Source: Streptomyces sp. NBC_01571
Lineage (GTDB): Bacteria; Actinomycetota; Actinomycetes; Streptomycetales; Streptomycetaceae
DNA length: 64,000 nucleotides
Direction of reading: 5' to 3'
Assembly (NCBI RefSeq): GCF_026339875.1
Contig: NZ_JAPEPZ010000001.1
Coordinates: forward strand, 1,054,001 to 1,118,000
Shown in pieces: positions 21,945-35,999 of the stretch. The notes beneath the pieces are model-generated. The model worked only from the letters and a program-made list of their open reading frames with translations, did no database searches and was not told where the DNA came from. Position 1 is the first letter of the stretch. The number at the start of each line of letters is the position of its first letter. The position numbers and the translations under genes are program-made.

Positions 21945-22214
21945 CGGCCGGCCGGCCGGTCCACCGACGCACGGTGCGTTCGTCGCCTTCGACCTGATGG
22001 CACAGGGGGTGCCGGTGCGCTGCACGGAGCCGGCCGCCGGGTCCCGCAGGACGAGCGGTGGGCGGCTTCGACGACTCCCCGCCGCCACACGTCCCTCCGG
22101 CAGTCTTCGGACCGGCTCGGCAGCGGGACGGAGGTGCTGCTCGCGAGGACCGGTGGCGAGGATCCGGCCGCGGTGATCCTGCCGACCGAGCCGGTGCGGC
22201 GCGGCTCGACCTGA
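21945..22214 (+). pseudogene. Decayed C-terminal remnant of a LacI-family regulator
   Basis: The 610-base gap between 21787 and 22398 has no intact gene, but pieces of a LacI-family effector domain can be read in order in three frames: AFVAFDLMAQGV from 21976 (frame 1), VGGFDDSPPP from 22058 (frame 2), then SLRQSSDRLGSGTEVLLA and ILPTEPVRRGST up to a TGA at 22212-22214 (frame 0). These match the DLMAxG, VGFDD, TVRQ and LPTxLVxRxS landmarks of LacI proteins. The DNA-binding N terminus is missing. The frames change by different steps from those in the other broken genes, so this looks like true decay. Confidence 0.6.
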
Positions 22215-22397
22215 GCCACCGCCCGCGTCGGAACTCCCCGGCACGGGCGTGGCGCCCGCGGGTGTCGGCGCGCCCGCCCTCTCCGTGGCGACCGGTCAGG
22301 ATTCGAGAAGCCATCGGGCACTCCCCCGTCCTAGCGTGGAGGAGCCGGCGCAGCCCGTCGGCCGACAGCCAACGACACGCATCACCAGGGAGTCGCC

Positions 22398-22751
22398 ATG
22401 ACCGCCGGTCTGAAAACCATCATCTACCCCGTCAAGGACCTCGCACGGGCGAAGGCCATGTTCGCCGGACTGCTGGGGGCGGAACCGTACGCGGACACCG
22501 CCTACTACGTCGGGTTCAAGGACGCCGGGCAGGACGTGGGCCTCGATCCCAACGGGCACGCCAAGGGAATGACCGGGCCGGTTCCGTTCTGGCACGTCGA
22601 CGACATCAGGGCCGCGCTCGCCGGGCTGCTGGAGGCCGGGGCCGAGACGCTGCAGGAGGTCCAGGACGTGGGCGGCGGCAGGCTGATCGCCTCGGTCAAG
22701 GACCCGGACGGCAACCTCGTCGGGCTCCTCCAGGACGCGCCCGGCGCATAG
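22398..22751 (+). CDS. VOC family (glyoxalase-like) protein
   Basis: A 117-residue vicinal-oxygen-chelate protein with paired beta-alpha-beta-beta-beta modules (KTIIYPVKDLARAKAMF, then VPFWHVDDIRAALA and DPDGNLVGLLQ). Members are metal-dependent dioxygenases, lyases or resistance binders; this one has a FWHV histidine but the full metal set cannot be assigned by eye. The ATG has GGGAG at seven bases. The MarR gene starts 83 bases downstream. Confidence 0.85.
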   Translation: MTAGLKTIIYPVKDLARAKAMFAGLLGAEPYADTAYYVGFKDAGQDVGLDPNGHAKGMTGPVPFWHVDDIRAALAGLLEAGAETLQEVQDVGGGRLIASVKDPDGNLVGLLQDAPGA

Positions 22752-22777
22752 TCACGGACACGCCCTTGCCGTATTGA

Positions 22778-22796
22778 TGCAACTGCACTGGTTGCA
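22778..22796. promoter_or_regulatory. Inverted repeat, probable MarR operator
   Basis: TGCAAC, seven bases, GTTGCA form a perfect inverted repeat 39 bases upstream of the MarR-type gene, flanked further out by TTGA and TCAA. Size and place fit a MarR dimer site for autoregulation. Confidence 0.55.
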
Positions 22797-22834
22797 CACT
22801 CAACGAACGGCGGCGCCTCTGTTACCGTGCAGAC

Positions 22835-23230
22835 ATGGCAGCGAACACGGTGGATGAGGTCCGGCTCGAGGACCGGTGGCGGGACATCCTGTCCGTGCAC
22901 GCGCGCACCATGTGCGAGATCGACCGCGCGCTGCATCCGCACGGTCTGGGAGCCAGCGACTTCGAGGTGCTGGACATCCTCGCCTCCGGCGAGCTCTCGC
23001 ACGCGGGTGAGCACTGCCGGGTGCAGAACATCGCCGACCGCGTCCATCTCAGCCAGAGCGCCCTGTCCCGCCTGATCGGGCGGCTGGAGAAGGACGGTCT
23101 GGTGCAACGCACGGTGTGTGCGGAGGACCGGCGCGGAGTGTGGGTCGCGCTCACCGGCAAGGGCCGCGACCTGCACGCCGAGGTGCGCCCGCTGCAGCGC
23201 GCCGTCCTCGCCCGCACCCTGGCCGGCTGA
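22835..23230 (+). CDS. MarR family transcriptional regulator
   Basis: A 131-residue winged-helix regulator. The helix-turn-helix and wing are visible as VQNIADRVHLSQSALSRLIGRLE and the DRRGVWVALTGKG hairpin. MarR proteins bind as dimers to short palindromes and release when a small phenolic or oxidant signal binds. The inverted repeat at 22778-22796 is the likely operator. The protein is slightly short at its C terminus, ending soon after the dimerisation helix begins. Confidence 0.88.
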   Translation: MAANTVDEVRLEDRWRDILSVHARTMCEIDRALHPHGLGASDFEVLDILASGELSHAGEHCRVQNIADRVHLSQSALSRLIGRLEKDGLVQRTVCAEDRRGVWVALTGKGRDLHAEVRPLQRAVLARTLAG

Positions 23231-23260
23231 GGCTGTCCTTCGCGGACTCCTCCGGCACGG

Positions 23261-24370
23261 CTACGGGGCGGCCGGGGGCAGCGCCGCATCGCCGTCGCCC
23301 GGGCGGCGGTCGACCGGCCGGGCCGGCGGGATGGGCGTGGTGGCGAAGTCCCGTGTCCCGGTCCACAGCGCGGGGACCGCGTCGCCGCGGCGGCACAACT
23401 CGTAGGCGATCGCCTCGTAGTTGACCCGCCAGCCGCGGAAGTGCGGCCATGCCTCCCGCGCCGTCCGCTCGGCGGGGAAGCCCGCTGCCCGCACCATGGA
23501 CACCGCCGCGTCGAACTCCGCGAAGGACAGCTGGATCGGAGTGTCCGGGGCGGGGTCGGCGTCGTAGGCGAAACGCAGCGAGCGCGCGATGTCGCGCAGT
23601 GCGGTGAAACCCGCGCGCAGGACCAGGCGGGCTTCGGGCGGGGCGCTGCCCGGGGTGAGGGAGAGGTGCAGGGCGGCCGCGTCCATGACGGAGACGAGAC
23701 CGACGATCCAGCTGCGGTACGGCCGCGGGGAGCGGAACGCCAGCAGGACCGGATACGTGGAGTGGCTCTCGCCGATGTCGGAGGCGAGCCGCTCCCAGGA
23801 GCGGTACAGCTCGGGCAGCGCGGTCTCGGTGTCCACCAGCCACTGCCGGGCCAGGATCTCCGGACCCCAGGCGGGTTCGCCCGCGCGCGACTGGAGCAGG
23901 GTCACCTCCAGTTCGCGGCGGTTGTAGGCCGCGTACAGGGTGGGCAGGTACGCGATCTGGAGGGCGATCACGACCGGTCCGGTAGCCGCCGCGAGGAAGT
24001 CCACGACGGACAGGTGCAGACGGTCACCGCTGGCGAAACCGAGCGTGAACAGGCTCGATCCGGCCTCCCGTACGGACTGGGTCCAGGTGAGCGCGGAGAG
24101 GGCGTGCAGCAGCAGTCCGAAGCCGAGCAGGGCGCCGCCGAGCCAGCTCGCGAGCATGCCGACCAGCATGAGCGGGGCCAGCCAGGTCTGTGCGCGGTCG
24201 ATGGCGTCGTAGCCGCCGGGGGCCGCCAGGCGCAGCAGCAGACGCAGCCCGCGCCACCAGCGGATCACCAGCGAGGAGTAGAGCCCTCGCGGCACCACGA
24301 GGGTGCGCAGGATGCTGGCGAGCACCAGGACGAGAAGCAGTCCGCCGGCGACGCCCGAGATCCAGTTCAT
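23261..24370 (-). CDS. Membrane protein with a potassium-channel-like pore segment
   Basis: A 369-residue protein with an N-terminal membrane part and a long cytosolic part. Hydrophobic helices lie at about 5-25, 60-95 and 130-150. Between the second and third is SSLFTLGFASGDRL, which has the layout of an ion-channel pore helix and filter, but with TLGFA in place of TVGYG. The cytosolic region (150-369) is helical and Ala/Arg-rich, with no known domain recognised. It may be a degenerate two-helix channel or an unrelated membrane protein. No operon partner is present. Confidence 0.6.
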   Translation of the reverse strand: MNWISGVAGGLLLVLVLASILRTLVVPRGLYSSLVIRWWRGLRLLLRLAAPGGYDAIDRAQTWLAPLMLVGMLASWLGGALLGFGLLLHALSALTWTQSVREAGSSLFTLGFASGDRLHLSVVDFLAAATGPVVIALQIAYLPTLYAAYNRRELEVTLLQSRAGEPAWGPEILARQWLVDTETALPELYRSWERLASDIGESHSTYPVLLAFRSPRPYRSWIVGLVSVMDAAALHLSLTPGSAPPEARLVLRAGFTALRDIARSLRFAYDADPAPDTPIQLSFAEFDAAVSMVRAAGFPAERTAREAWPHFRGWRVNYEAIAYELCRRGDAVPALWTGTRDFATTPIPPARPVDRRPGDGDAALPPAAP

Positions 24371-24528
24371 GCGGCCATTGTCACGCCCGGTACGGGCCGG
24401 CCGGCGCTACGGACCCGGTGTCCACGGACGTCCGAGACGTCCGCGCGGGCCGGCGCCGCTCATGGCGACGGCGCGGGCAGGCCCTCCACCCGTGTCTCGT
24501 CGAGGGCCCGTCGCCGCGTCGCTCCGGG

Positions 24529-24948
24529 TCAGGCGCCCGGGCGGGCCAGGAGGGTGCGGACGCCCTCGGAGGTGAGGGTCAGACCGTGCGGCGAGCTCGC
24601 GTCGATGGTGAGCGCCAGATCGCCGGACGGCCACTGGGAGGCCAGCGCGCCCAGGGGAACCATCCGGTAGCGGGAGACGAAGGGCAGCAGACCGGCCATC
24701 TCCAGTTCCGAGGTGAAGACCGGTACCACCTGCTCCCCGTCCGGCTGGTCGAGGACAGGCAGCGCCACGGCCGCGGGATCGGTGGCGTCCTGCTCGCTCA
24801 CGTCGTCCGGCACGGGAACCAGCACCTCGCTGCCGGCCAGCGTGTCCAGTGCCACCGTGTCGCGGGTGTTCTCCGCGAGGGTGTCCAGGGCCCGCTGGGC
24901 CGGGGTCGCGGGCGTGGGCCGGTGGTGGTCGTTCGAGGGTGTGTCCAT
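24529..24948 (-). CDS. SseB-like N-terminal domain protein
   Basis: A 139-residue cytosolic protein. The region from about residue 25 to 120 resembles the SseB family (VLVPVPDD, VVPVFTSELEMAGLLP), small alpha/beta proteins of unclear function first tied to serine sensitivity in E. coli. The ATG at 24948 has GGGGATC at six bases; the frame is open a further 93 bases upstream without support. It stands alone on the minus strand. Confidence 0.65.
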   Translation of the reverse strand: MDTPSNDHHRPTPATPAQRALDTLAENTRDTVALDTLAGSEVLVPVPDDVSEQDATDPAAVALPVLDQPDGEQVVPVFTSELEMAGLLPFVSRYRMVPLGALASQWPSGDLALTIDASSPHGLTLTSEGVRTLLARPGA

Positions 24949-25291
24949 GGCAGATCCCCATGAGTAGCGGACGGACCGCCCGGAATGTGATCCGTTCCGG
25001 GCGCGGTTCCCGTCGCGCGTACCCGTCCACGGCCGGGACATGCCTCCGCGACCGGTCGTTCGTGGTGCTCAGGGGATCAGCGGGACGTCGTACGAGGGCA
25101 GGCCGAGGTGGTCGCGGCCGACGCGCCGGGCGAGCGGTTCCGCCATGGTGGGTCCGACACCACGTCACCCACGTCACCGGCGGGCTCGCCACCGTGGCGG
25201 GCGTGACCTGGTGCGACGTACCCGCTGCGGCCGATCTCGGCCGTTCGCCACCGTGCTCGCCCGTCGGGCCGGACGGCGGCCCGGACCTGTG
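24949..25291. other. Intergenic region with no supported gene
   Basis: Between the SseB-like and GtrA genes nothing convincing was found. A 25-codon minus-strand frame (25069-25146) ending LPSYDVPLIP looks like the tail of some gene but has a stop shortly upstream and no ribosome binding site; it may be a remnant. Confidence 0.4.
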
Positions 25292-25687
25292 TCAGCGCGC
25301 CGTGCGCGACTGACGCGAGGCGTCCGAGGACGGAATCATGATCGCCCGACTGGCCAGGAACGTGAACGGCACGGCCACGGCCGAGGCGAGCAGCGCCGCG
25401 GTCCGGGACCCGCAGTGGCCCACCTCGACCAGGAAGTGCAGGGCGAGCGTGGAGACGACGAGGTTGGTGACGGTGGCCAGCGGGAAGCGCACGAACTTCC
25501 GCAGCGTGGGACGCGTCCGGTAGGTGAACCGCGCGTTGAGGAAGAACGAGACGACCGTGGCCCCGGCGAACGCCACGAGGTGGGCGGCCAGGTAGGGAAG
25601 GACCGTCAGCAGTGTGAGGTAGAAGCCGTAGTACGCCGCGGTGTTGGCCACGCCGACCATGGCGAACCTGAGGAACTGGCCGCCCAT
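25292..25687 (-). CDS. GtrA family membrane protein
   Basis: A 131-residue protein with four predicted helices and the conserved FAMVGVANTAAYY start and FFLNARFTYR segment of the GtrA/DPMS-like family. GtrA proteins help move or hold polyprenyl-phosphate sugars at the membrane for glycan decoration. Here no glycosyltransferase is adjacent, so its partner is unknown. It is divergent from the RNA ligase-kinase gene, with 255 bases between. Confidence 0.88.
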   Translation of the reverse strand: MGGQFLRFAMVGVANTAAYYGFYLTLLTVLPYLAAHLVAFAGATVVSFFLNARFTYRTRPTLRKFVRFPLATVTNLVVSTLALHFLVEVGHCGSRTAALLASAVAVPFTFLASRAIMIPSSDASRQSRTAR

Positions 25688-25942
25688 CAGCCGCTGCCGG
25701 TGGCGCGCCGGGGCGGCGCGGACGGCGGCCGTCGGTCGAGACGTCGAGAGAAAAGTCCGATCATGTCCTCATCATTGAAGCAGAGCCGGGGAGCGTCCCC
25801 GCGCACTCCCCTCCCCCGCCGCGACGGCGCGGCCCGGAAAACCGCGGGCCGTCGCCGCCCCGGGCGATTACAGTCGGCGTTCTCATTTCCGGACCCGTGC
25901 CGTGACCGGGCCGCGCCGTTTTCCACCGGGGGACAGAGCACC

Positions 25943-27850
25943 ATGGGGTCCGAAAATTCAGGCCTGCCCGTCAGGGGTGCGCGCGTGCACTATCCGCGCA
26001 CCCCGCATCTGGCCTGGTCACCGGGGGCGACCTCGGACGACGTACGGGTGACGGACCTGGCGGGCCTGCGGGACCTGGAGGTGGTGGTCACCGAGAAGCT
26101 CGACGGGGAGAACACCACCCTCTACGCCGACGGACTGCACGCCAGATCGCTCGACTCGGCGCACCATCCCTCGCGGGCGTGGGTGAAGGCTCTGCAGGGA
26201 CGGATCGGCGCGGCCCTCCCGCCGGGGTGGCGGGTGTGCGGCGAGAACCTGTACGCGCGGCACTCGATCGCGTACACCGGACTCGACAGCTGGTTCTACG
26301 GGTTCTCCGTCTGGGACGGCGACCGGTGCCTGGACTGGGACCGGACGGTGCGGTTCCTGCGGCGGCTGGGCGTGCCGGTGCCGCGGGTGCTGTGGCGGGG
26401 GGTCCTCGACGAGCGGGCCGTACGGGCGCTGCGCGTCCTGCGGCTGGATCCCGCCCGGCAGGAGGGGTACGTCGTACGGACCGTCGAAGGGTTCGGACAC
26501 GAGGAGTTCGGCCGCCGGGTGGCCAAGTGGGTGCGGCCAGGGCACGTGCGGACCGACACGCACTGGATGCACGCCGAAGTGGTGGCCAACGGGCGGGGCA
26601 CGGCCGCCGCGCTGTGGGACGTGCGGTCGGGCGCGGCCCCCGACGCCCGGGCGCTCGCGGCGGCGACGGGAACGGGTTCCCATTCGGGGACGGCAACGGG
26701 CTCGGGCTCGGGAACGGCGACGGGTTCGGGTGCGGGGACGGGAGCGACGACGGGCTCGGCTTCGGGGACGGGAGCGGCAACGGCGGCCGCGGGCTCGGGA
26801 ACGGCCGAGGAGGCACCCGTCGGTGAAGCCGTCGTCGCGGAGGTGTCCGCCAGGCTCGATGTGCTGGGGCGGACCGGGGACGCCCGGCTGACGGGGGTGC
26901 TCGCCGCCCTGCTGCACGGTCGGCGCCGTGCCCGGCTGGCTCCCCGGCTGGCCGGACCGCTCGGCATGCCGTCGGCACGGCGGGTCGCGGACCTGGTCGG
27001 ACTCCAGTCCCTGCTGCACCGTCCGTACCCCGACGAGCAACGACGTGCCGGACTGGGACGCATGGCCGTCGCGGCCGACCTGGGTGTACTGCACGCGGTC
27101 GCCGCGGCCGTCGCCGTCACCGAGGGTGCCGCGGCGCGCGAACAGGTCGACTGGTCCGCGCTGCACGCGGAGGAGGCGGGCCTCCTCGGGGAGGAACCGT
27201 TCGAGCGTCTCCGCGCGAGCCTGCACGGTGCCCTCGACGGCCTCGGTGACGCCGATGTGGCCGACCGCTGCTGGGCGCAGGCGCGGGCGTCGTACGCCGC
27301 GGGCCACGTGGCCACCGCAGAGGCGGCCGTGGCGGCGACCTGGCGGCTGCGGAGCGGCGCGTTCCCCCGGCTGATCCATTTGGTGGGCCCGTCGGGCAGC
27401 GGCAAGAGCACGTTCGCCGCCGGCCTGCACGGGATCGACGGTCGGGTCTCCCTGGACGACCTGCGCTCGGCGCGCGGCTCACGCTCCGACCAGCGCGCCA
27501 ACGCGGACGTCCTCCGCGAGGGCCTGCGACGGCTGGACTCCGCGCTCGCGGCCGGTCCCGCGACCGTGGTCTGGGACGCCACCTCGCTCGGCCGGCACCA
27601 GCGTTCCCTGGTGGACGCCGTGGCGCACCGTCGTGACGCGCTGATCACCCACGTGGTCGTGCTGGCCACGGACGACGAGCTGGCCGGGCGCAACGCCGAA
27701 CGGGCGCACCCGGTGCCACCCGAGGTGCTCGAAGCACAGCTGCGCCGGTTCGACCCGCCCTACCCGGGCCAGGCGCACCGGACGTGGTACGTCGGCGCGG
27801 GCGGAACCGTGGACGACGTCGACGGCGCACTGGACGGGGGCGAGCGGTGA
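25943..27850 (+). CDS. RNA ligase-polynucleotide kinase fusion (predicted RNA repair)
   Basis: A 635-residue two-enzyme protein. Residues of about 10-230 are an Rnl2-type ATP-dependent RNA ligase: motif I EKLDGEN with the adenylated Lys52, motif III-like SWFYGFSVWD (116-125), motif IV EGYVVR (174-179) and motif V VAKWVRP with Lys195. A Gly/Ala/Ser/Thr linker fills about 240-290. A helical domain of unknown role spans about 295-475. Residues of about 476-620 are a P-loop kinase: Walker A GPSGSGKST (482-490), a VWDATSLGRHQR segment and an Arg lid, like T4 polynucleotide kinase. It should phosphorylate 5'-OH RNA ends and seal them. The ATG at 25943 has GGGGGAC upstream. It overlaps the next gene by one base (TGATG). 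Confidence 0.85.
   Translation: MGSENSGLPVRGARVHYPRTPHLAWSPGATSDDVRVTDLAGLRDLEVVVTEKLDGENTTLYADGLHARSLDSAHHPSRAWVKALQGRIGAALPPGWRVCGENLYARHSIAYTGLDSWFYGFSVWDGDRCLDWDRTVRFLRRLGVPVPRVLWRGVLDERAVRALRVLRLDPARQEGYVVRTVEGFGHEEFGRRVAKWVRPGHVRTDTHWMHAEVVANGRGTAAALWDVRSGAAPDARALAAATGTGSHSGTATGSGSGTATGSGAGTGATTGSASGTGAATAAAGSGTAEEAPVGEAVVAEVSARLDVLGRTGDARLTGVLAALLHGRRRARLAPRLAGPLGMPSARRVADLVGLQSLLHRPYPDEQRRAGLGRMAVAADLGVLHAVAAAVAVTEGAAAREQVDWSALHAEEAGLLGEEPFERLRASLHGALDGLGDADVADRCWAQARASYAAGHVATAEAAVAATWRLRSGAFPRLIHLVGPSGSGKSTFAAGLHGIDGRVSLDDLRSARGSRSDQRANADVLREGLRRLDSALAAGPATVVWDATSLGRHQRSLVDAVAHRRDALITHVVVLATDDELAGRNAERAHPVPPEVLEAQLRRFDPPYPGQAHRTWYVGAGGTVDDVDGALDGGER
26661..26815 (+). repeat. Imperfect hexamer-rich coding repeat (linker of ligase-kinase)
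   Basis: This stretch is built from near copies of GGGAACGG-, GGCTCGG- and GGGACGG-like units and encodes only Gly, Ala, Ser, Thr and a His. It separates the ligase from the middle domain and looks like a slippage-expanded flexible linker. Confidence 0.7.
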
Positions 27851-30800
27851 TGCGTACCAGTGACGAGATCTACCACCGGGTCCGCTGGGACCCGCGCTTC
27901 GACCCGGCCCGTTTCGTGCTGGGCGTCAACCAGCGCGGGGCCGCCCCCAAGCGCGTCCCGCTGCCCGCCTTCGTGCCCGGGGGCGACATCCCCTGGCACC
28001 GGGTGCTGTTCGTCGAGGCGGACGGCGAGTTGGTGTGGGACCGGGCCACGGGCGTCGACCGTATCGACATGTCGTCCGCCGGCCGGGTGCGGGCCCCACG
28101 CCTTCTGCGGGCCCCGTTCTTCACGGCCGACACGCCGTACGGGTGGGACGACGCGGTGGCGCGGTGGCGAGCCCCCGAGGGACCGCCGGTCACGTCCGAC
28201 GGTTCGCGGGTGTCGCCCCACCGTCTGCGGGTGCTGACCTGGAACACGCTGTGGGACCGCTACGACAGCGACCGCATCGACACCGACCGCCGCCGGCCCC
28301 TGCTGCTCGCGGCCCTGGAGGAAGCCGACGCCGACGTCATCGCGCTCCAGGAGGTCGAGGCCGGCCTGCTCGACCTGCTGCTGCGGGCTCCCTGGATCCG
28401 TGCCGCCTACACGGTGGGCTGCGACCCCCGCGGGAAACGGGTCGACGACACCGGGCTGCTGCTGCTCAGCCGGTTGCCCGTGCGGGAGGCCGGCCACCAC
28501 GCGCTCGGGCCGCACAAGGCCGTCACCGCCCTCACGCTGGAGACGGCGTCCGGCCCGCTCGTCGTCGCCGCCACCCACCTCAGCAGCGACCACTCCGACA
28601 ACGGCCCGGCCCGCCGCAAGGCCGAACTCGCGCGCGTCGCCGAGGGACTTGCCGACCTGGACGGTCCCCTGGTGCTGCTCGGCGACTTCAACGACGGCGG
28701 CGACGGCCCGGCCGGCCCCGCCGCCGCCCTCGGACTGCGGGACGCCTGGACCGAGGTGCGCGGGCCCGCCGACGGGAGCCCCACCTTCGACCCCGCCGTC
28801 AATCCGCTGGCCGCGATCTCCTCGCTGTCCGGCCGTTCCTCCCGGCTCGACCGGATCCTGCTGCGGGGCCGCGCGCTTCACCCGACGGACGCGGCCCTGC
28901 GGGGCGACTCCCCCGGCCCCGGCGGCCTGTACGTCTCCGACCACTTCGGCGTGGAGGCCGTGCTGAGCCTGGAGGGGGCGGGCGTCGTCGCGGCCCGCGA
29001 CGGCGTCGGCTCCGCGGCGGATCCCGGCTCCGCGTACGACCCGGGGCCCGTCGGCGCCGACCACGCCGTCGACTCCATCGCCGCCCTCGACACCCTCGAC
29101 CTCGCTCCGACCGCGCGGACGGCGGTGGCGTGGCTGCCGTCGGAGGATCTGTGGCCGGCGATCCAAGTACTCCGGCGGACGTACGACCCGCAGGCCCGGC
29201 GCTGGCCGCCGCACGTCAACCTGCTCTTCGGTTTCGTCCCTGAATCCGCGTTCGAGCGGGCCGTCCCGCTGCTGTCCCGGGCTGCGGCCACGACACCGCC
29301 GTTCGACATCCGGCTCGACGGCGTGCACACCTTCGGACACCGGGACGACGCCACGGTGTGGCTCGACCCGGCGGGAACCGACCCGGAGCCATGGGCGCGG
29401 CTGCGGGCCGCGCTGGAACGGCGGTTCCCGCGGTGCCGGGGCCGTGCCGAGGGATTCACCCCGCATCTGACCCTGGGTCGTGTCCAGGACCCGCGGCCGG
29501 TCGCCGCCGACTGCGTCGCGCGGCTCGGCTCCGCCGTGCCGGCCCGGGTCGGGCACCTCGTCCTGCTCTCCCGCCGGGGCGACGAACCGATGTGTCCGCG
29601 GGCGACGGTCGCGCTGGGCACCGGCGAGGTGCGGTGGCTGCCCGACCCGACCACCACGTCCACCACGTCCCCCATGGCCACGACGGCCGGCACGCTCGGC
29701 GCTGCTGCCGCGGCTGTGGCCGTGGACCCGGACGACCGTGGTGCCGAGCGCACCGCGCGGCGCCTCTCCGACGCCCTCGGCGAAGGCACCGTGCACGTCG
29801 TAGGGTCCCGGCGGATGGGCGGCGCGCTGCCCGGAGCGGATCTGGACCTGGTCGCGGCCCTGCCCGGCGTCGTCGGCATGACGGACGTCCTGGCTCGGGT
29901 GACCGGGGCTCTTCCGGACGCCGCCCGGGTACGGCAGGTGACCGGCGCCCGGGTGCCGGGGCTTCGGCTGAGCGTCGACGGACTCGGTGTCGACCTGAGC
30001 GTGGTCGCCACCGGTCCTCTCCCTCCCGCCGAAGCGGTGGACCACCGCGCCGAGCTGGGCGCGGCGGCCGCGACCGCGCTGAGCGCGGTCAGCGACGCGG
30101 ACGCCGTACGGAGCGCCGTCGCCGGCCGGCACGCCGCGTTCGCCGGGCTGGCCGCGGAGGTCAAGGCCTGGGCGAAGGCACGCGGTCTCGACTCGGCGCC
30201 GTTCGGCGGGCTGCCGGGCCTCGCCTGGTCCGTCCTGGCGGCCCGTACGACCCGCGAGGCGGAGGTCCTGTCCCCGGCCGGACTGCTCCGGGACTTCTTC
30301 GGGACCTGGGCCGCATGGGACTGGCGCGAACCGGTCGGCCTCGATCCGGTCGGCCTGGAACCGACCGGGCCCGGTCCGACCGGCCTCGATCAGGCCGGCC
30401 ACGAACCCTTCGGCCTCGTGGGTGCCGCGTTCGCACGGTCGCCCTCCGCGGTGTCGGTCATGACCCCGACCGACCCGGTCCGTCTCTGCACTTCACAGGT
30501 CGGTCCCGGCTTCCGCGACCTCCTGACGGACGAGCTGTACCGCGCCTGGGACATCCTGGAGACGGCCGCGCGGACCGGCGCGGATCCGCTGCCCGCACTG
30601 CTGTCTCCCCCGCCTCTGCACCGCCGGCACGCCGCGTGGCTGGTGGTGAGCGTACGTGCGGCCGGGACGGAGGAGTTCGAGCAGACCCGGGGTCGCGTGC
30701 GCGGGCGCGTAAGGGCGCTCCTCACTGCTCTGGAGGATGCCGGGACGCCCGACGCGCATGCCTGGCCCCACCCGTTCGGGGAGGGCACGGCGTCGGCGAC

Positions 30801-30966
30801 GTACGCCATCGGCCTCGGCCGGAACCCGCTCGACGCGGCCCGGCTCGACGGGCTCACCCGGGGATGGGGCAGGGGGCTGCCCGGGGTCGTGACCGAGAGG
30901 GCGGAATGCGGTGACGTGCCCACCCTCCGCTGCCCCGCACACATTCTTCCTGCGCACCGGGAATGA
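27850..30966 (+). CDS. Multidomain RNA end-processing protein: MJ1316-EEP-2H-nucleotidyltransferase
   Basis: A 1038-residue protein with four or five domains in series. Residues 1-75: MJ1316/DUF504 domain (SDEIYHRVRWDPRFDP), predicted to recognise cyclic-phosphate RNA ends. Residues of about 125-375: endonuclease/exonuclease/phosphatase fold with Asn132, Glu168, GDFND (278-282) and SDHFG (363-367). Residues of about 420-600: 2H phosphoesterase (LigT-like) with HVNLLF (455) and HLTLG (539). Residues of about 630-1010: nucleotidyltransferase of the poly(A)/CCA polymerase type with GSRRMGG, Asp664/Asp666 in GADLDLV, Asp715 in GVDLSVV, and a PAP-like RNA-binding C domain. All key catalytic residues seem present. 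It is coupled to the ligase-kinase by TGATG. Together they should clean damaged RNA ends and prepare them for ligation. Confidence 0.85.
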   Translation: MRTSDEIYHRVRWDPRFDPARFVLGVNQRGAAPKRVPLPAFVPGGDIPWHRVLFVEADGELVWDRATGVDRIDMSSAGRVRAPRLLRAPFFTADTPYGWDDAVARWRAPEGPPVTSDGSRVSPHRLRVLTWNTLWDRYDSDRIDTDRRRPLLLAALEEADADVIALQEVEAGLLDLLLRAPWIRAAYTVGCDPRGKRVDDTGLLLLSRLPVREAGHHALGPHKAVTALTLETASGPLVVAATHLSSDHSDNGPARRKAELARVAEGLADLDGPLVLLGDFNDGGDGPAGPAAALGLRDAWTEVRGPADGSPTFDPAVNPLAAISSLSGRSSRLDRILLRGRALHPTDAALRGDSPGPGGLYVSDHFGVEAVLSLEGAGVVAARDGVGSAADPGSAYDPGPVGADHAVDSIAALDTLDLAPTARTAVAWLPSEDLWPAIQVLRRTYDPQARRWPPHVNLLFGFVPESAFERAVPLLSRAAATTPPFDIRLDGVHTFGHRDDATVWLDPAGTDPEPWARLRAALERRFPRCRGRAEGFTPHLTLGRVQDPRPVAADCVARLGSAVPARVGHLVLLSRRGDEPMCPRATVALGTGEVRWLPDPTTTSTTSPMATTAGTLGAAAAAVAVDPDDRGAERTARRLSDALGEGTVHVVGSRRMGGALPGADLDLVAALPGVVGMTDVLARVTGALPDAARVRQVTGARVPGLRLSVDGLGVDLSVVATGPLPPAEAVDHRAELGAAAATALSAVSDADAVRSAVAGRHAAFAGLAAEVKAWAKARGLDSAPFGGLPGLAWSVLAARTTREAEVLSPAGLLRDFFGTWAAWDWREPVGLDPVGLEPTGPGPTGLDQAGHEPFGLVGAAFARSPSAVSVMTPTDPVRLCTSQVGPGFRDLLTDELYRAWDILETAARTGADPLPALLSPPPLHRRHAAWLVVSVRAAGTEEFEQTRGRVRGRVRALLTALEDAGTPDAHAWPHPFGEGTASATYAIGLGRNPLDAARLDGLTRGWGRGLPGVVTERAECGDVPTLRCPAHILPAHRE

Positions 30967-31082
30967 GTCGGCTCTTCGAGGGAAACCCCCTTCATTTCTC
31001 GTCCGAGCGGGTTTGGGACGGTCCTCTCAGGTCAGCCGTAACAGTGGATCGCACAGTCAATGCGGTAAGGACGTGATCTGCA

Positions 31083-31256
31083 GTGACCAAGAACCAGAAG
31101 GCACAGGCGAAGACGGAGCAGGCCAAGGGCAAGGCCAAGGAAACCGTCGGCCGCACCGTGGGCAACGAGCGTATGACCGCCGAAGGCAGGGCGGAGAAGG
31201 CCAAGGGCGACACCCGCCAGGCCAAGGAGAAAATGAAGGACATTTTCCGGCACTGA
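31083..31256 (+). CDS. CsbD family stress protein
   Basis: A 57-residue hydrophilic protein, nearly all Lys, Glu, Ala, Gln, Thr and Gly, with the repeated AKGKAKETVG and AEGRAEKAKGD signatures of the CsbD family. CsbD proteins are general-stress proteins of unknown mechanism. The GTG start at 31083 has AAGGACG ten bases upstream. It was too short for a standard length cut-off. A perfect terminator follows 17 bases after the stop. Confidence 0.9.
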   Translation: MTKNQKAQAKTEQAKGKAKETVGRTVGNERMTAEGRAEKAKGDTRQAKEKMKDIFRH

Positions 31257-31272
31257 GGGTCACGCGCTGCAC

Positions 31273-31304
31273 CGGGCCCGCCGCACGCTCATGCGGCGGG
31301 CCCG
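31273..31304 (+). terminator. Rho-independent terminator of the csbD-like gene
   Basis: A perfect 13-base stem (31273-31285 with 31292-31304), a six-base loop and a following CTTCTTTT tract make this the clearest intrinsic terminator in the window. Confidence 0.9.
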
Positions 31305-31331
31305 CTTCTTTTCCAAGAAGGAGTGAAGGAA

Positions 31332-31787
31332 ATGTGCGGAGAGTACCGGGCGCACGCCACCGACACGGCGGCCGACCCGCCCGCATCGCGCTCCCCCGGA
31401 CCGCGCAGCCCGGCCGAGGTACGAGAGGCCGTACGGCAGGCGCTCGACAACGCGCGACGATCCCGCGGACCCGAGGCGACGGCCGATGCGACAGCCGTCG
31501 GCGACGTCCTGCTCGTCGCCTCCGAGCTCACCACCAACGCGATGCTGCACGGCGGCGGGGTCACGGCGTTCGAGGTGATACCGGGCGAGCGCGAGGTGCG
31601 CCTGTCGGTGAGCGACCGCAGCGAGGAAATGCCGACGCCCGCGCGGCGCGCCGGCGGTTCGGGGTCCTTGCAGATCGGCGGCCATGGCTGGCCGATCATC
31701 TGCCTGCTGGCCCGCGACATCATGATCTCGATTCTCCAGGCCGGAGGAAAGCGCATCACGGCCGTCGTGCCGCTCTCTCCCCGGTAA
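31332..31787 (+). CDS. RsbW-like ATP-binding regulatory protein
   Basis: A 151-residue single-domain GHKL ATPase (HATPase_c_2). The N-box LVASELTTNAMLHG and the G1-like VSDRSEEMP are present; the glycine-rich lid is GGHGWPIICLL. Such small kinases act as anti-sigma factors or phosphorylate STAS anti-anti-sigma proteins; Streptomyces has dozens. The ATG at 31332 sits eight bases from AAGGAG; an in-frame GTG lies at 31323. Setting among csbD, WhiB and GAF-ANTAR genes suggests a stress-response role. Confidence 0.82.
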   Translation: MCGEYRAHATDTAADPPASRSPGPRSPAEVREAVRQALDNARRSRGPEATADATAVGDVLLVASELTTNAMLHGGGVTAFEVIPGEREVRLSVSDRSEEMPTPARRAGGSGSLQIGGHGWPIICLLARDIMISILQAGGKRITAVVPLSPR

Positions 31788-31920
31788 AGACATTCTCTGC
31801 GGCCCTGCTGCGCCAGATACGTACGAAGGACCGCACCATTCTTTTCCTTGAAGGTATTCCGAGGACATTGGATCCACCGAAACCATCGCCGGGTCGTCCG
31901 GGGTCAGCCGGGAGGAAAAT

Positions 31921-32442
31921 TTGTCGGAGTCGGCACATGACGAAGCCCGCCGTGACGCGGAGCGCACACGGGGCGACACGGGGCGTGAGGAGACCGAGGA
32001 GGAGAGGGCCGACCGCAAATGGGGTGACCTGCTCCAGGAGATCCGGGTCGCGCAGACGGGCGTCCAGATTCTGTTCGGCTTTCTGCTGACGGTCGTCTTC
32101 ACGCCCAGGTACACGCAATTGGAACAGATGGACAGAACGATCTACATCGTCACCGTCGTTCTCGGGGCCTCCGCCACCGGGGCACTGATCGGCCCCGTGT
32201 CCCTGCACCGGATCGTCGCCGGCAGGCGGGTGAAGGAGCGGGCCGTCGTGTGGGCGTCACGGCTGACGCTCGCGGGGCTCGTGCTGCTGCTCGCGACGAT
32301 GACCGCGTCGCTCCTGCTGATCCTGCGGGTCGCCACCCACGACGCCTACGTGCCCTGGCTCGTCACGGGGATCGTGGCCTGGTACCTGTTCTGCTGGTTC
32401 GCCGTACCGATGTGGATCCGCAGCCGCCACACGACTCCGTGA
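31921..32442 (+). CDS. DUF6328 family membrane protein
   Basis: A 173-residue protein. After about 40 charged residues come four hydrophobic helices (about 47-65, 75-95, 115-138 and 142-163). The conserved block EIRVAQTGVQILFGFLLTV fits the DUF6328 family, of unknown function. The TTG start at 31921 is chosen because GGAGGAAAA lies five bases before it. The charged N terminus should be cytosolic. Confidence 0.8.
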   Translation: MSESAHDEARRDAERTRGDTGREETEEERADRKWGDLLQEIRVAQTGVQILFGFLLTVVFTPRYTQLEQMDRTIYIVTVVLGASATGALIGPVSLHRIVAGRRVKERAVVWASRLTLAGLVLLLATMTASLLLILRVATHDAYVPWLVTGIVAWYLFCWFAVPMWIRSRHTTP

Positions 32443-32458
32443 CCCTCACGGCAGGCCT

Positions 32459-32794
32459 TCACGCGGTGAGGGCCTGCCGTGGCACACCGGGCAGCGAGGA
32501 CGTGCCCCGCGCGGCGGGGCGCACCGGATACGTGGTCTTCCCCGGGTCCACCACGGGGTCCCCCAGCACGATCCGGCCCGCCGCGTGCAGCGCGTCGCAC
32601 TCGTCGGTGGGCAGGGCGACGTAGCACCCTCCACGCCCGGCGCCGGCGTCCATGGGCTGCCAGTAGCCGTACCGGCGTCGCCCACTGGCCTGCACGGTGA
32701 GGCAGACGGGAGCCCGCTGCACGGTGATGAGACGCAGCACTTCGGCACCCTCGGGGCCGAGAGGAGCGGAGGGGCGCGGGAGGGCTCGGAGCAT
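32459..32794 (-). CDS. Hypothetical protein
   Basis: A 111-residue protein with no recognised domain. The core (VLRLITVQRAPVCLTVQ, RRYGYWQPM, CYVALPTDECDALHAAGRI) looks like a compact beta-rich fold and has normal codon use. I favour the ATG at 32794, with GGAGA upstream, over the ATG at 32854, because the added 20 residues have rare codons. It is convergent with the DUF6328 gene, 16 bases apart. Confidence 0.6.
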   Translation of the reverse strand: MLRALPRPSAPLGPEGAEVLRLITVQRAPVCLTVQASGRRRYGYWQPMDAGAGRGGCYVALPTDECDALHAAGRIVLGDPVVDPGKTTYPVRPAARGTSSLPGVPRQALTA

Positions 32795-32983
32795 CGTCAG
32801 CGGTCTCCGTTCAGGGCTCGCGGCACGGCGCGGCGATGGGAGGGTGGGCGTCATGTGCGGGTGGCCTCTCGACGGACAGGTCCGGTCACGTACCGCGGGA
32901 GGCGGAAACGATCTTCGTTGCTGCTCGGCATTGTTGCGGACGGCACTGACATCGCGGTCGCGGTCCTCACGGAGCTGGTTCGT

Positions 32984-33382
32984 TCAGCCGGTGCGTTCAG
33001 CCGGTGTGCCGGGCCGATTCGTGGAGCCGGTTCCCCGAGGGCGGGTCGCCGTCCCGGTCCGATGTGCGCGAGCGGCGAGTTCGCCCTGGACGAAGGGGTC
33101 GTGGTCGGGGTCGTACGTCCCCGCATGGTCGGCGAGCGCCTCGGTGATCCGCTCCCACTCCTCGACCTCCGCGCGCACGACCAGCGCCTCCTGACCGGTG
33201 AGCGCACCGCCCCGCGCCGCCTCCCGGACGTCCTCCAGCGCGGCCTTCGCCTCGTGGTGCCGCATTCCGGTGGCCGTACGGCACACGCGCGCCCAGGCGG
33301 CACGTTCCTCCTCGGAGGGCTCACGCACCTCGTCGTCCGTCGCGTCGACGCGTGCCGGCGTTCGGTCCTGCTCCAGGCTCAC
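32984..33382 (-). CDS. Hypothetical charged helical protein
   Basis: A 132-residue acidic, Glu/Ala/Arg-rich protein, mostly helical, with no known domain. The stretch EEERAAWARVCRTATGMRHH and ALVVRAEVEEWERITEA suggests amphipathic helices, perhaps a coiled coil. The tail is low complexity (Thr/Arg/Gly). The GTG at 33382 has GGGGTGGAG just upstream. No functional context beyond nearby regulator genes. Confidence 0.5.
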   Translation of the reverse strand: MSLEQDRTPARVDATDDEVREPSEEERAAWARVCRTATGMRHHEAKAALEDVREAARGGALTGQEALVVRAEVEEWERITEALADHAGTYDPDHDPFVQGELAARAHRTGTATRPRGTGSTNRPGTPAERTG

Positions 33383-33550
33383 TGCTCCACCCCGTTCAGG
33401 TGCACGGAACTGATGTGTCCTACAGCAGTCCCGTCTGCCCCCGACCGGAGAAACGACACCTACCGAGAACGACGAGACGGTACGGGGAGCAGTGCGCGGT
33501 GCGCCCGAGGTGGGCGTTCGCACCCCCCGGGCGCCCGTGGGGCCGGAAGG

Positions 33551-33985
33551 TCACCAGGGCAGCAGGGCGTGCACGTCCTTGCCGTCGGGACGCACCACCA
33601 CACTCACCCGATGACAGAGCGCGTGGATGAGGTGCCAGCCGATGCCGCCCGCGCCCCGGGACGGGTTCATGCGGCGGGGCGTGGGCGGCGTGGTGCTGCT
33701 GTCACGCAGTGTCACCTGGAGGCCGTCGCCGGTGGGTCGTACCCGCAGTTGGAAGGGGCCGGGAGCGTACTGGATCGTGTTGGCGGCCAGCTCCGTCACC
33801 ACCAGCAGGACGTCGTCCCAGTACTCGGGCGACGAGGGCGGTGACGCCCGGGCGAAGACCCGCAGATAGCCCTCCGCCGAGAGGCGGGCGTCGGTCACGT
33901 CGCACAACTGGCCGGGGAAGACGACGTCGAGGCTCTCGAACTCCTCGTCCGACGGCCGCTTGTCCCCGCTCGGATCACTTTCCAT
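33551..33985 (-). CDS. RsbW-like ATP-binding regulatory protein
   Basis: A 144-residue GHKL ATPase (HATPase_c_2), the second of its type within 2.5 kb. The N-box is LLVVTELAANTIQYAPG, followed by VTLRDSSTTPP and the lid GAGGIGWHLIHAL. It is probably an anti-sigma factor kinase or partner of a STAS protein. The ATG at 33985 is the likely start; the frame is open to 34099 with less support. It precedes, on the same strand, two hypothetical genes and follows the WhiB gene. Confidence 0.78.
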   Translation of the reverse strand: MESDPSGDKRPSDEEFESLDVVFPGQLCDVTDARLSAEGYLRVFARASPPSSPEYWDDVLLVVTELAANTIQYAPGPFQLRVRPTGDGLQVTLRDSSTTPPTPRRMNPSRGAGGIGWHLIHALCHRVSVVVRPDGKDVHALLPW

Positions 33986-34085
33986 CACGCCTGCCCCGGA
34001 CTCGTCGGCGGGATCTCTCCTCTTACTCCACACCACGCGGACGCCACCTTTCGTGCGCTCCTGCCCGCCTGCCGGCCCCACTCGC

Positions 34086-34346
34086 CTAGGTTCCGGCATC
34101 CCTGGAGGCGCGGCCGACCGTGCGCCGCCTCAGCGCGCGCCGCTCGTTCTCGCTCGTCCCGCCCCAGACGCCGATGGTCTGGCCCGTGTCGAGCGCCCAG
34201 CGCAGGCACTCGTCACGGACGGGGCACCGCCGGCAGACGGCCTTCGCCTCCTCGACCTGCGGAAGTGCGGGGCCCGTGTTGCCGATGGGGAAGAAGAGAT
34301 CGGGGTCGACGGTGCGGCATGCTGCCGATTCGCGCCAGTTGTCCAT
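34086..34346 (-). CDS. WhiB family iron-sulfur transcription factor
   Basis: An 86-residue WhiB-like protein. The four Fe-S ligands are Cys10, Cys38, Cys41 and Cys47 (CxxC then CxxxxxC), followed by the GVWGG turn and a basic C-terminal stretch (RRALRRRT) that contacts DNA. Wbl proteins bind region 4 of the principal sigma factor and sense NO or oxygen through a 4Fe-4S cluster. The ATG at 34346 has a strong AGGAGG site. The N-terminal WRESAACRTVDPDLFFP is of the WblE/WhiB1-like short type. Confidence 0.93.
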   Translation of the reverse strand: MDNWRESAACRTVDPDLFFPIGNTGPALPQVEEAKAVCRRCPVRDECLRWALDTGQTIGVWGGTSENERRALRRRTVGRASRDAGT

Positions 34347-34589
34347 GGGAGCCTCCTGCGATCACGGTGATGTCGTTCGTCGGACTTCGGTCTCCCTTCG
34401 GGTCACCGTTGATCCACGGGTGAAACACAGGGCTTGCCGGGACGGCATTGCTTGAACGCGAAATGACGCCGTCGGCGGTGCGCGGGCACGCCCTCCGGAT
34501 CGCCCGTGGGGCGCGACGAGGAAGCGCGGGTGGCAAGATGGGAGCCCTGGTGGGCGACGACGCGGCTTCAACAGCAGAGCAGGTGGCAC

Positions 34590-35294
34590 ATGTCACATGA
34601 GCCCGGCGAGATCTGGGAACAGTTCGCCGTCGCCCTGGCGGAAATGGCGCGCGATCTGCTGGCCCAGGACTCGGTCCAGGACACGCTGAACCGCATCGTG
34701 GAGCACGCGACGCTGCTGATCAACGGCTGCGACGACGCCGGCATCCTCACCGTGCGACGGGGTGAGGTGCATGCCCTGGCGGCCACGAGCGAGGTGGTGC
34801 GCCGCGCGGACCGGATCCAGCAGGACCTGCGGGAGGGCCCCTGCTTCGACGCCGTGACCGACCGCCAACAGGTCTATGTCATCGAGGACTTGAACCAGCC
34901 GCACGAACGCTGGTCCCGCTTCGCCCCCGAGCTGAGGAAGCTGGGCATGGGGAGCGTGATGGGATTCCTCCTCTTCACCGAGGACGACGAACTGGGCGCC
35001 CTCAACCTGTACTCCCACCGGCCCCGCGCCTTCGACGAGAACGCCCGGCGGGCCGGCTGGATCCTCGCCTCGCACGCCGCCGTGGCCTTCTCGGCGGCGC
35101 GGACACACCAGCAGCTCGGCGACGCCCTGGAGACCCGTCACGAGATCGGCGAGGCGATGGGCATCCTCATGGAGCGCTACGGGCTGCCCGAGAACGCGGC
35201 CTTCAAGGTGCTCAAGAAGGCATCACAGGACCGCAACATCAAACTGCGCGAGATCGCCCGCCAGGTCTGCGAGACCGGCGAGAAGCCCGGCTGA
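34590..35294 (+). CDS. GAF and ANTAR domain protein (RNA-binding antiterminator)
   Basis: A 234-residue two-domain regulator. Residues of about 25-165 form a GAF sensory domain, and residues of about 170-230 an ANTAR domain (ETRHEIGEAMGILMERYGLPENAAFKVL), which binds paired hairpins in nascent RNA to prevent termination. The ATG at 34590 follows AGGTGG closely. The ligand is unknown. It is divergent from the WhiB gene, and its last 56 bases overlap the tail of a disrupted minus-strand gene. Confidence 0.88.
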   Translation: MSHEPGEIWEQFAVALAEMARDLLAQDSVQDTLNRIVEHATLLINGCDDAGILTVRRGEVHALAATSEVVRRADRIQQDLREGPCFDAVTDRQQVYVIEDLNQPHERWSRFAPELRKLGMGSVMGFLLFTEDDELGALNLYSHRPRAFDENARRAGWILASHAAVAFSAARTHQQLGDALETRHEIGEAMGILMERYGLPENAAFKVLKKASQDRNIKLREIARQVCETGEKPG

Positions 35295-35900
35295 CCGCCG
35301 CGGAAACGGTACGGGGTGCGCCGCCACGTGGCCGGACCGCCGCGCGGCGCGCCGGCACGGGCGACGGCCGCGCGGGCACCCGCCCCCCGACGGACGACCG
35401 GGCCTGGACGGAACGGACAGGGTGCCCGGGTTGCGCTCCGGGAGCCGCCAGCCGTCGGATGCGTCCGTACTCGGCGGCCATCTCGGGGGTCCCGAGCAAG
35501 TCACCGAGACCGGCCGAGGCCTCGTGGTCGACGTCCTCGACCGAGCGGATGGCCAGCTCGTGGAACTCTGCGCGGCGGTTCTGCTCCAGGTAGGTCTGCC
35601 AGTGCGCGAGCGCGCTGATGACGGCGAGGATTCCGGCGTCCGTGTCGTCGTCGGACCGGATGCCGTCGTGGATCGTCGCAAGCTCGCGGCCGAGGTCTTC
35701 GGGGCTGAGCGTCAGGAAGTTCTCGCGGGCGGTGGTGGGCGCCGCCCAGGCGTCGTCGGTGAGTTCGTCCTCGGCGGCGTACCGCAGCAGCTCCGGCCGC
35801 GTCAGGCCACGACCGTCTCCCGCCCGAGGGCACGGGCACTGTCTTCGTCGGCGGCGACGCTCAACTGCAGGGTGTCCGCCTCGAGTTCGCTGTATCTCAC
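35239..35900 (-). pseudogene. Hypothetical gene disrupted by a frameshift near 35805 (or CTG-started)
   Basis: A frame starting at GTG 35900 (MRYSELEADTLQLS...) runs 32 codons and stops at 35802. The next frame takes over at once from 35805 with a well-coded helical sequence (LTRPELLRYAAEDELTDDAW, then ENFLTLSPEDLGRELATIHD, LAHWQTYLEQNRRAEFHELA) and stays open to 35239. Loss of one base would explain this. Alternatively the second part starts at CTG 35805, overlapping the stop as CTGA, with GGGAGACGG upstream. No family was recognised; the last 60 residues look non-coding. Confidence 0.5.
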
Positions 35901-35999
35901 CAGCGCAGCCCTAAGCGCCGGCCCCTCCCGTCTGGCGGACGGTGCCCCCGGCCCGGCACCCGCGTCGGGTCACGCGGGCGTGGACCGGGGACGCGGTGC

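Follow-up and report, generated by a model that had tools for sequence, protein, structure and literature searches.

A predicted two-protein RNA end-healing, refilling and sealing system in Streptomyces sp. NBC_01571

A 64,000-nucleotide stretch of the 11.5 Mb genome of Streptomyces sp. NBC_01571 (the window, within which all positions are given) carries two overlapping genes on its forward strand, which we term gene A and gene B. Gene A encodes an RNA ligase and a polynucleotide 5'-kinase separated by what appears to be a decayed HD phosphohydrolase domain. Gene B encodes an MJ1316 domain, an endonuclease/exonuclease/phosphatase (EEP) domain, a 2H phosphoesterase domain and a eukaryotic-type poly(A) polymerase (PAP) module. 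We propose, with a probability of roughly 0.68, that the two proteins constitute an RNA end-healing, refilling and sealing system in which gene B has taken over healing of the 3' end from the decayed HD domain.

Domain composition of genes A and B

The features of the two genes are as follows. Model confidence is given as predicted local distance difference test (pLDDT) scores.

25943..27850, + strand: gene A, RNA ligase, putatively decayed HD domain and polynucleotide 5'-kinase, 635 residues (open frame, Pfam, profile comparison, model)
25982..26593, + strand: ligase domain, residues 14-217, with KLDG 52-55, E101, EG 174-175 and KWV 195-197 (PF09414, identity with DRB0100)
26660..26812, + strand: low-complexity Gly/Ser/Thr/Ala linker, residues about 240-290 (sequence; pLDDT <50 at 248-287)
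26810..27358, + strand: helical domain, predicted HD phosphohydrolase with most catalytic residues lost, residues about 290-472 (hhalign, residue counts, model)
27365..27823, + strand: polynucleotide 5'-kinase domain, residues 475-627, with GPSGSGKS, D505, R508 and R583 (Pfam AAA_33, profile and fold matches)
27850..30966, + strand: gene B, MJ1316-EEP-2H-PAP-type module, 1038 residues (open frame, Pfam, phmmer, profile)
27850..28044, + strand: MJ1316 (RNA cyclic-end recognition) domain, residues 1-65 (Pfam 5.5e-18)
28234..28944, + strand: EEP domain, residues 129-365, with N132, E168, H243, D279, N281, D334, D364 and H365 (Pfam Exo_endo_phos 3.6e-19)
29137..29586, + strand: 2H phosphoesterase domain, residues 430-579, with H455 x N/T and H539 x T/S (Pfam 2_5_RNA_ligase2 2.9e-36)
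29767..30789, + strand: eukaryotic-type PAP module, residues about 640-980, with D664, D666 and D715, and with D781 and A783 in the nucleotide pocket (Pfam, phmmer, profile)

Reading of the sequence places the TGA stop codon of gene A at 27848-27850 and the ATG of gene B at 27850 (TGATG), bearing out the two genes, their limits and the one-base overlap that an initial annotation of this DNA had given. The start codon at 25943 is consistent with close relatives; its MGS leader is common to several of them, and others begin 12-13 residues later.

In gene A, the Pfam models RNA_ligase (PF09414, 1.3e-34, residues 46-197) and AAA_33 (6.8e-24, residues 477-606) both matched above their cut-offs. The ligase domain shares 56% identity with D. 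radiodurans DRB0100 across 205 residues, and its residues K52, D54, G55, E101, E174 and K195 are kept in all 102 rows of an actinobacterial alignment. We take KLDG, E101, EG and KWV to be the ligase motifs. The kinase residues K488, S489, D505, R508 and R583 are likewise present in 102/102 rows. With its P-loop, aspartate and arginine in place, the domain belongs to the polynucleotide-kinase kind; the initial annotation had rightly called it a kinase and had classed it as generic AAA_33. The P-loop stretch (residues 473-518) was the only part of gene A to match in a PADLOC scan (mad3, 1.1e-4), and gene B matched none of the PADLOC anti-phage models. An AlphaFold model of gene A built from the 102 rows reached a pLDDT of 80.1; a model from 15 rows (pLDDT 49.7) was discarded. 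Fold searches with the retained model recovered the kinase; those in the PDB and a viral library additionally recovered ligases and some proteins about as large as an HD-kinase.

The MJ1316, Exo_endo_phos and 2_5_RNA_ligase2 matches in gene B all exceed the Pfam cut-offs. Among 121 actinobacterial rows, which are 58-97% identical to gene B so that their conservation partly reflects kinship, each of the eight EEP residues listed above and both 2H histidines, H455 and H539, are invariant. The partner in the first 2H motif is asparagine in 109 of the 121, including the protein studied here, and threonine in 11; the partner in the second is threonine or serine in 120. Across a further 121 rows, mainly cyanobacterial, the catalytic positions of the EEP, 2H and polymerase modules are also nearly invariant.

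At the C-terminus of gene B, PAP_central matched above its cut-off (1.2e-8, residues 770-906), while the palm model NTP_transf_2 remained below threshold (15.5 against 21 bits). Residues 646-974 resemble structurally characterized poly(A) polymerases, with a phmmer value of 6.1e-16 and a profile value of 1e-34 to PAP gamma. The PAP part of a relative from Calothrix matches 2hhp, the yeast enzyme, at 7.7e-38. The palm residues G652, S653, D664, D666 and D715 are found in 121/121 actinobacterial rows. The same rows uniformly carry D781 and A783 at the positions of yeast Y224 and N226, and keep K772 at that of yeast K215; we take K215, Y224 and N226 to be ATP-contact residues of yeast Pap1. The mainly cyanobacterial rows have tyrosine or histidine (115/121) at the position of D781 and asparagine (120/121) at that of A783, but arginine (110/121) at that of K772. 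The actinobacterial change in the pocket suggests, from these alignments, a different choice of base.

Thus, the six domains named in the initial annotation (MJ1316, EEP, 2H, kinase, nucleotidyltransferase and ligase) are all present, with Pfam matches above cut-off (MJ1316, Exo_endo_phos, 2_5_RNA_ligase2, PAP_central, RNA_ligase and AAA_33) and phmmer or profile matches far beyond chance, and the catalytic motifs that it had described as intact are conserved at every residue checked. What it called a template-free nucleotidyltransferase is, more precisely, a poly(A) polymerase of the eukaryotic type. Its description of gene B as a five-function protein, however, was an overcount of four functional modules, and its inventory overlooked a further domain at residues about 290-472 of gene A.

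A putative decayed HD domain and the Deinococcus connection

Residues 290-472 of gene A have no Pfam match. BLASTP against two whole Deinococcus HD-Pnks gave an alignment that spans the second half of their HD domain, and gene A is 33% identical to the HD-Pnk DRB0098 over 294 columns comprising that second half and the kinase. Next, hhalign was used to compare a profile of the middle domain, made from the 102 actinobacterial gene A rows, with one of the HD region of four Deinococcus HD-Pnks without their kinase. The match had a probability of 97.0 (E 9.9e-11, 167 columns), whereas 40 column shuffles gave at most 3.4 and the reversed profile 0.3. In the AlphaFold model, residues 291-470 are all-helix, with block pLDDT values of 84-98. 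No HD structure was among the fold-search rows listed, where kinase matches dominate and fill the VIA list; the HD assignment rests on sequence comparison.

Most of the catalytic residues are lost. The stretch containing H107 of the HD-Pnks is deleted in gene A, and their first histidines lie outside the aligned region. The HD pair reads HG in gene A, with the aspartate kept in 14 of 102 rows. V390 occupies the position of the aspartate after the HHH stretch, where none of the 102 rows has an aspartate. The alignment thus indicates that the middle domain of gene A is an HD fold whose catalytic residues are mostly gone, a decay that is clear but uneven. Its likely role is that of a spacer or a docking surface.

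Both halves of gene A therefore have counterparts in the DRB0100-DRB0099-DRB0098 operon of D. radiodurans, where a ligase, a PARG macro protein and an HD-Pnk are encoded consecutively; gene A is homologous to the ligase and to the HD-Pnk. The arrangement here departs from that operon in the fusion of ligase and HD-kinase, in the loss of most HD residues, in the lack of PARG and in the addition of a second gene, MJ1316-EEP-2H-PAP. PARG does not lie between the ligase and HD-Pnk in three Deinococcus plasmids either, and so may not be a defining component. Gene A is probably a fused descendant or a cousin of the DRB0100 ligase and the DRB0098 HD-Pnk. The operon is induced by DNA damage or ionising radiation (PMC1997131) and the DRB0098 kinase is active (PMC11833690). 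The DRB0098 substitutions H81A and D82E did not lower the 3'-phosphatase signal, and empty-vector samples were active too (PMC1997131), which makes the role of the DRB0098 HD domain itself uncertain.

Pairing, distribution and genomic setting

A genome-contig scan confirmed 293 loci, of which 80, all actinobacterial, were sampled. Gene A, whole or in part, lies immediately upstream of gene B in 77 of the 80, so that the two-gene system of the initial annotation is a conserved unit. By tblastn, 66 of these loci contain both ligase and kinase parts, to which re-examination added L083; L062 and L119 retain a partial ligase near a contig end. The kinase part stands alone in eight, and in seven of these the contig starts there.

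Among 101 Streptomyces genomes, gene B matches occur in 39 (at most seven candidates scored per genome) and ligase matches in 22, the latter including a 30-residue remnant in G441 and a match in the poor assembly G444. Both genes are present in 20 genomes, a long gene B only in two and a ligase only in two. Eighteen of the 22 long gene B forms contain all modules, three lack 2H and one (G451) is a fragment with MJ1316 and EEP. A further 17 genomes have the 2H part only, with or without MJ1316, and none of the 17 has a ligase match. One of the 20 paired genomes, G407 (L171, L172), has gene A broken between about residues 382 and 399 with its parts separated by 2.8 Mb through an inversion or an error of assembly. 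The kinase part still adjoins gene B there, and a reading of this genome as unlinked retention of the two genes was dropped. At the level of the phylum, at least 12 of 396 genomes have some match and at least three a near-full-length gene B (at most two candidates scored per genome). Three protein searches were considered for the best 120 of 1238, 1313 and 197 matches; the first two listed relatives from Streptomyces and other Actinomycetota, and the closest gene B relative among the matches listed is a Streptomyces protein with 97% identity. Genes A and B are thus inherited together yet accessory.

In a rough neighbour count, no other family occurs in more than 16 of 81 loci, the home-made gene caller and clustering having recovered gene B in 65/81 and gene A in 61/81. 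Recurrent upstream genes were considered as a third partner and rejected; they are ribosomal protein genes, a trait of lineage. Fifteen of the 80 loci, all from Streptomyces, have the cassette directly past the ribosomal protein genes of the S10 operon and oriented against them (L067, L079, L086, L088, L090, L092, L095, L098, L100, L102, L109, L114, L121, L122 and L124; L069 and L081 are noted alongside). In seven of the 15, EF-Tu or EF-G flanks the other side, which places the cassette in the gap between fus/tuf and S10.

The module content of gene B varies. In three Streptomyces genomes (G462, G467 and G484; L176, L177 and L178) gene B reads MJ1316-EEP-PAP beside a ligase-kinase, with 2H cleanly absent (Pfam on two of the three). 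The notion that all long forms carry 2H was accordingly rejected, 3/22 being without the segment. Three of the 121 rows of the cyanobacterial set (P0336, P0351 and P0362) have an internal deletion that removes the whole or half of 2H. Short Streptomyces relatives comprise MJ1316-2H (L126-L129) or 2H only (L130-L133 and L135), and none of these has a ligase-kinase match in the surrounding 17 kb. A tree built from the 2H segment nests L126, L127 and the proteins consisting of 2H only within the full-length actinobacterial forms (support 0.6) and leaves L128 and L129 outside. MJ1316, EEP and PAP appear to form the core of gene B where it is paired, with 2H as an auxiliary; it is because three Streptomyces cassettes lack 2H that we name EEP as the core healing enzyme.

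More distant relatives of each gene were found separately. A plasmid of Calothrix brevissima NIES-22 (AP018209.1), typed as conjugative, encodes a full-length relative of gene B near a dynamin-like GTPase gene and unnamed genes (P0243, L137:7995-10970), with the order MJ1316-EEP-2H-PAP and 29% identity over 995 columns. RNA ligases of jumbo phages (Caulobacter phage CcrSC, Xanthomonas phage XacN1 and others; L138, L139 and L140) are 39-50% identical to the gene A ligase over some 200 residues among the 20 listed of 30 matches, and those of CcrSC and XacN1 are also PF09414. These similarities suggest that the ligase may have been exchanged among phages, Deinococcus plasmids and actinobacteria. 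Relatives of gene B were absent from 50,697 phage records at E 1e-5, and a viral scan with query A1 returned no relative.

Around the cassette, terminator-like sites number four between 25000 and 31400 against 0.8 expected. One lies some 300 bases 3' of gene B:

31273..31304, + strand: terminator-like hairpin

A small frame between gene B and this hairpin is CsbD-like by eye alone. The approximately 900 bases at 25042-25942, flanked by a divergent SseB-like gene (24529-25041) and by gene A, contain no convincing gene and have no Rfam match.

Proposed function, alternatives and related systems

Metal-independent RNases leave a 5'-OH and a 2',3'-cyclic phosphate. We propose that the MJ1316 domain of gene B, whose family is described as recognising RNA cyclic-phosphate ends, would bind RNA ending in such a phosphate, possibly a fragment of tRNA or rRNA. 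The EEP domain would act as an ANGEL2-like terminal phosphatase that yields a 3'-OH end, and 2H would open the cyclic-phosphate ring, a step that is presumably helpful and not essential, given that some cassettes are without 2H. The PAP module would then add nucleotides if needed, the gene A kinase would phosphorylate the 5'-OH and the gene A ligase would join the ends with ATP, perhaps with the two proteins in contact. ANGEL2 itself, an animal enzyme of the EEP family, clears terminal phosphates, including cyclic ones, ahead of polyadenylation (PMC9525292). Pfam scans matched neither a metallophosphoesterase nor a Hen1 methyltransferase in gene A or gene B. Having no metallophosphoesterase match and no intact HD, gene A would need a partner for 3' healing, a role that gene B fits. 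For the repair route and the replacement of lost nucleotides that the initial annotation envisaged, the support comes from domain logic.

Several observations weigh against this proposal. The decay of the HD pair is incomplete: its histidine is kept in 88/102 rows and the full pair in 12/102. Within the HHH stretch the middle position alone is still histidine, in 70/102 rows (glutamine in the protein studied here). EEP might act as a nuclease and not as a phosphatase. Gene B has no gene A nearby at three of the 80 loci (L058, L078 and L123); two of these genomes have no ligase match and one a weak match of 39%. Among the 22 Streptomyces genomes with a long form, G477 (the genome of L078) and G451 (the fragment) have gene B without gene A, and the whole record of the Calothrix plasmid, as distinct from the chromosome, yielded no ligase match. 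Since it occurs without gene A, gene B must be of some use by itself. Ahead of a complete gene B in Microtetraspora sp. NBRC 16547 (L076), gene A has shrunk to the kinase plus a remnant of the middle domain, with 4 kb of upstream sequence present. No non-coding RNA matched Rfam at the gathering threshold over 22000-36000, and neither a toxin gene nor a stress regulator was recognised in the neighbourhood among the ten window frames and ten recurrent families annotated. A defence against ribotoxins, which the initial annotation raised as a possibility, is conjectural. The Deinococcus literature is also discouraging: DRB0100 formed an AMP adduct at K40 and joined neither DNA nor RNA under any condition tried (PMC1997131), DNA ligation was likewise not observed together with its operon partners (PMC1997131), and its disruption left radiation resistance unchanged (PMC1978522).

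The occurrence of gene B by itself invites the view that it is mainly a machine for tailing and trimming 3' ends, in which EEP shortens, PAP extends and 2H clears blocked ends, so as to mark broken RNA for decay or protect it, gene A repairing only some of the products. The three unpaired loci and the Calothrix plasmid, the forms without 2H, the canonical eukaryotic kind of the PAP module and the presence of deadenylases in the EEP family (PMC9525292) all accord with it. We nevertheless consider it unlikely, since in 77 of 80 loci gene A immediately precedes gene B and MJ1316 is described as a domain for cyclic RNA ends. Refilling of tRNA, by contrast, is a special case of the repair system that we favour: an anticodon nuclease would remove a base, gene B would restore it and gene A would seal. 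The uniform D781 and A783 of the actinobacterial rows may give a preference other than plain A, and comparable refilling has been predicted by Iyer and colleagues for the RlaP enzymes of phages (PMC7824862). The choice of base is not readable from sequence, however, no tRNA gene was found in the window and the Rfam scan was empty, leaving this specific version rather doubtful.

Repair of DNA or mixed nucleic-acid breaks, once proposed for DRB0098-DRB0100, would suit the radiation-induced operon and its active kinase. The missing DNA ligation and radiation phenotype of DRB0100 described above speak against it, as do the RNA-directed families to which MJ1316, 2H and PAP belong and the RNA_ligase family (PF09414) of the ligase itself; we regard it as improbable. 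Animal 2H and EEP enzymes degrade 2'-5' oligoadenylate, and a nucleotide-signal device can be imagined in which the nucleotidyltransferase makes a 2'-5' or other oligonucleotide that 2H and EEP destroy. The cyanobacterial PAP part does match a cyclase model of the cyclic-oligonucleotide-based antiphage signalling system (CBASS), at 32 bits against a cut-off of 200, but its match to poly(A) polymerases (7.7e-38) is far stronger and the ligase-kinase partner would have no place in such a device, which makes it very improbable indeed.

Systems of the kind proposed here are already known, as predictions. Burroughs and Aravind in 2016 reportedly predicted a role for MJ1316 in RNA repair, with diverse fusions, and are said to have set out a general syntax of ligase, nucleotidyltransferase and end-modifying enzymes; here, too, MJ1316 stands beside RNA-repair enzymes. 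Some relatives are named 'RNA repair domain-containing protein' by NCBI. No publication on the gene A and gene B pair was found in the open-licence literature, a scope within which the 2016 paper does not fall; the MJ1316 work is cited in PMC6514570. The decay of HD, the link to DRB0098 and DRB0100, the 2H-less forms and the change in the polymerase pocket are new here, with overlap with the 2016 study possible.

The cassette was also compared with other known systems and proteins. Pnkp-Hen1 and Pnkp1-Rnl-Hen1 differ in having the metallophosphoesterase and the Hen1 methyltransferase that were unmatched in genes A and B. Fungal and plant Trl1 is a ligase, kinase and 2H cyclic phosphodiesterase with a ligase of the Trl1/Rnl1 kind. 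The same three activities are predicted here, but with a PF09414 ligase, with 2H in a separate protein and with EEP and PAP in addition; by Foldseek the fungal Trl1 ligase-kinase 9r3w ranked 39 with a root-mean-square deviation of 18.6 over 677 columns, a loose match. The jumbo phages share the ligase without relatives of gene B in the phage records. Cyanobacterial proteins named 'poly(A) polymerase' have the same domain order as gene B, but mostly keep tyrosine or histidine and asparagine in the ATP pocket. RtcB, also an RNA repair ligase, is unrelated to the PF09414 type in fold and chemistry; it is encoded at a separate locus of the same genome (G000:C1:5921266-5922372).

A bolder version of the proposal is tentative. 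The repair system may have replaced its own phosphatase, the HD domain having become a structural or docking part while a separately evolved gene B took over 3' healing and added refilling, with the actinobacterial pocket retuned to a base other than plain A. If this version is right, the cassette would be a complete machine that cleans, refills and seals RNA, its EEP domain would be a bacterial cyclic phosphatase of the ANGEL2 kind, and ligases of this lineage may depend on gene B as the partner hitherto missing for sealing. The presence of a eukaryotic-type poly(A) polymerase inside a bacterial RNA repair protein, in actinobacteria and cyanobacteria, bears on the origin of that enzyme. In a genus that can be cultured, the pair offers a small and testable setting for asking what DRB0100-type 'ligases' do and whether they need a partner, how 2',3'-cyclic-phosphate RNA is healed in bacteria when no Pnkp phosphatase takes part, and whether a bacterial repair enzyme restores lost nucleotides ahead of sealing.

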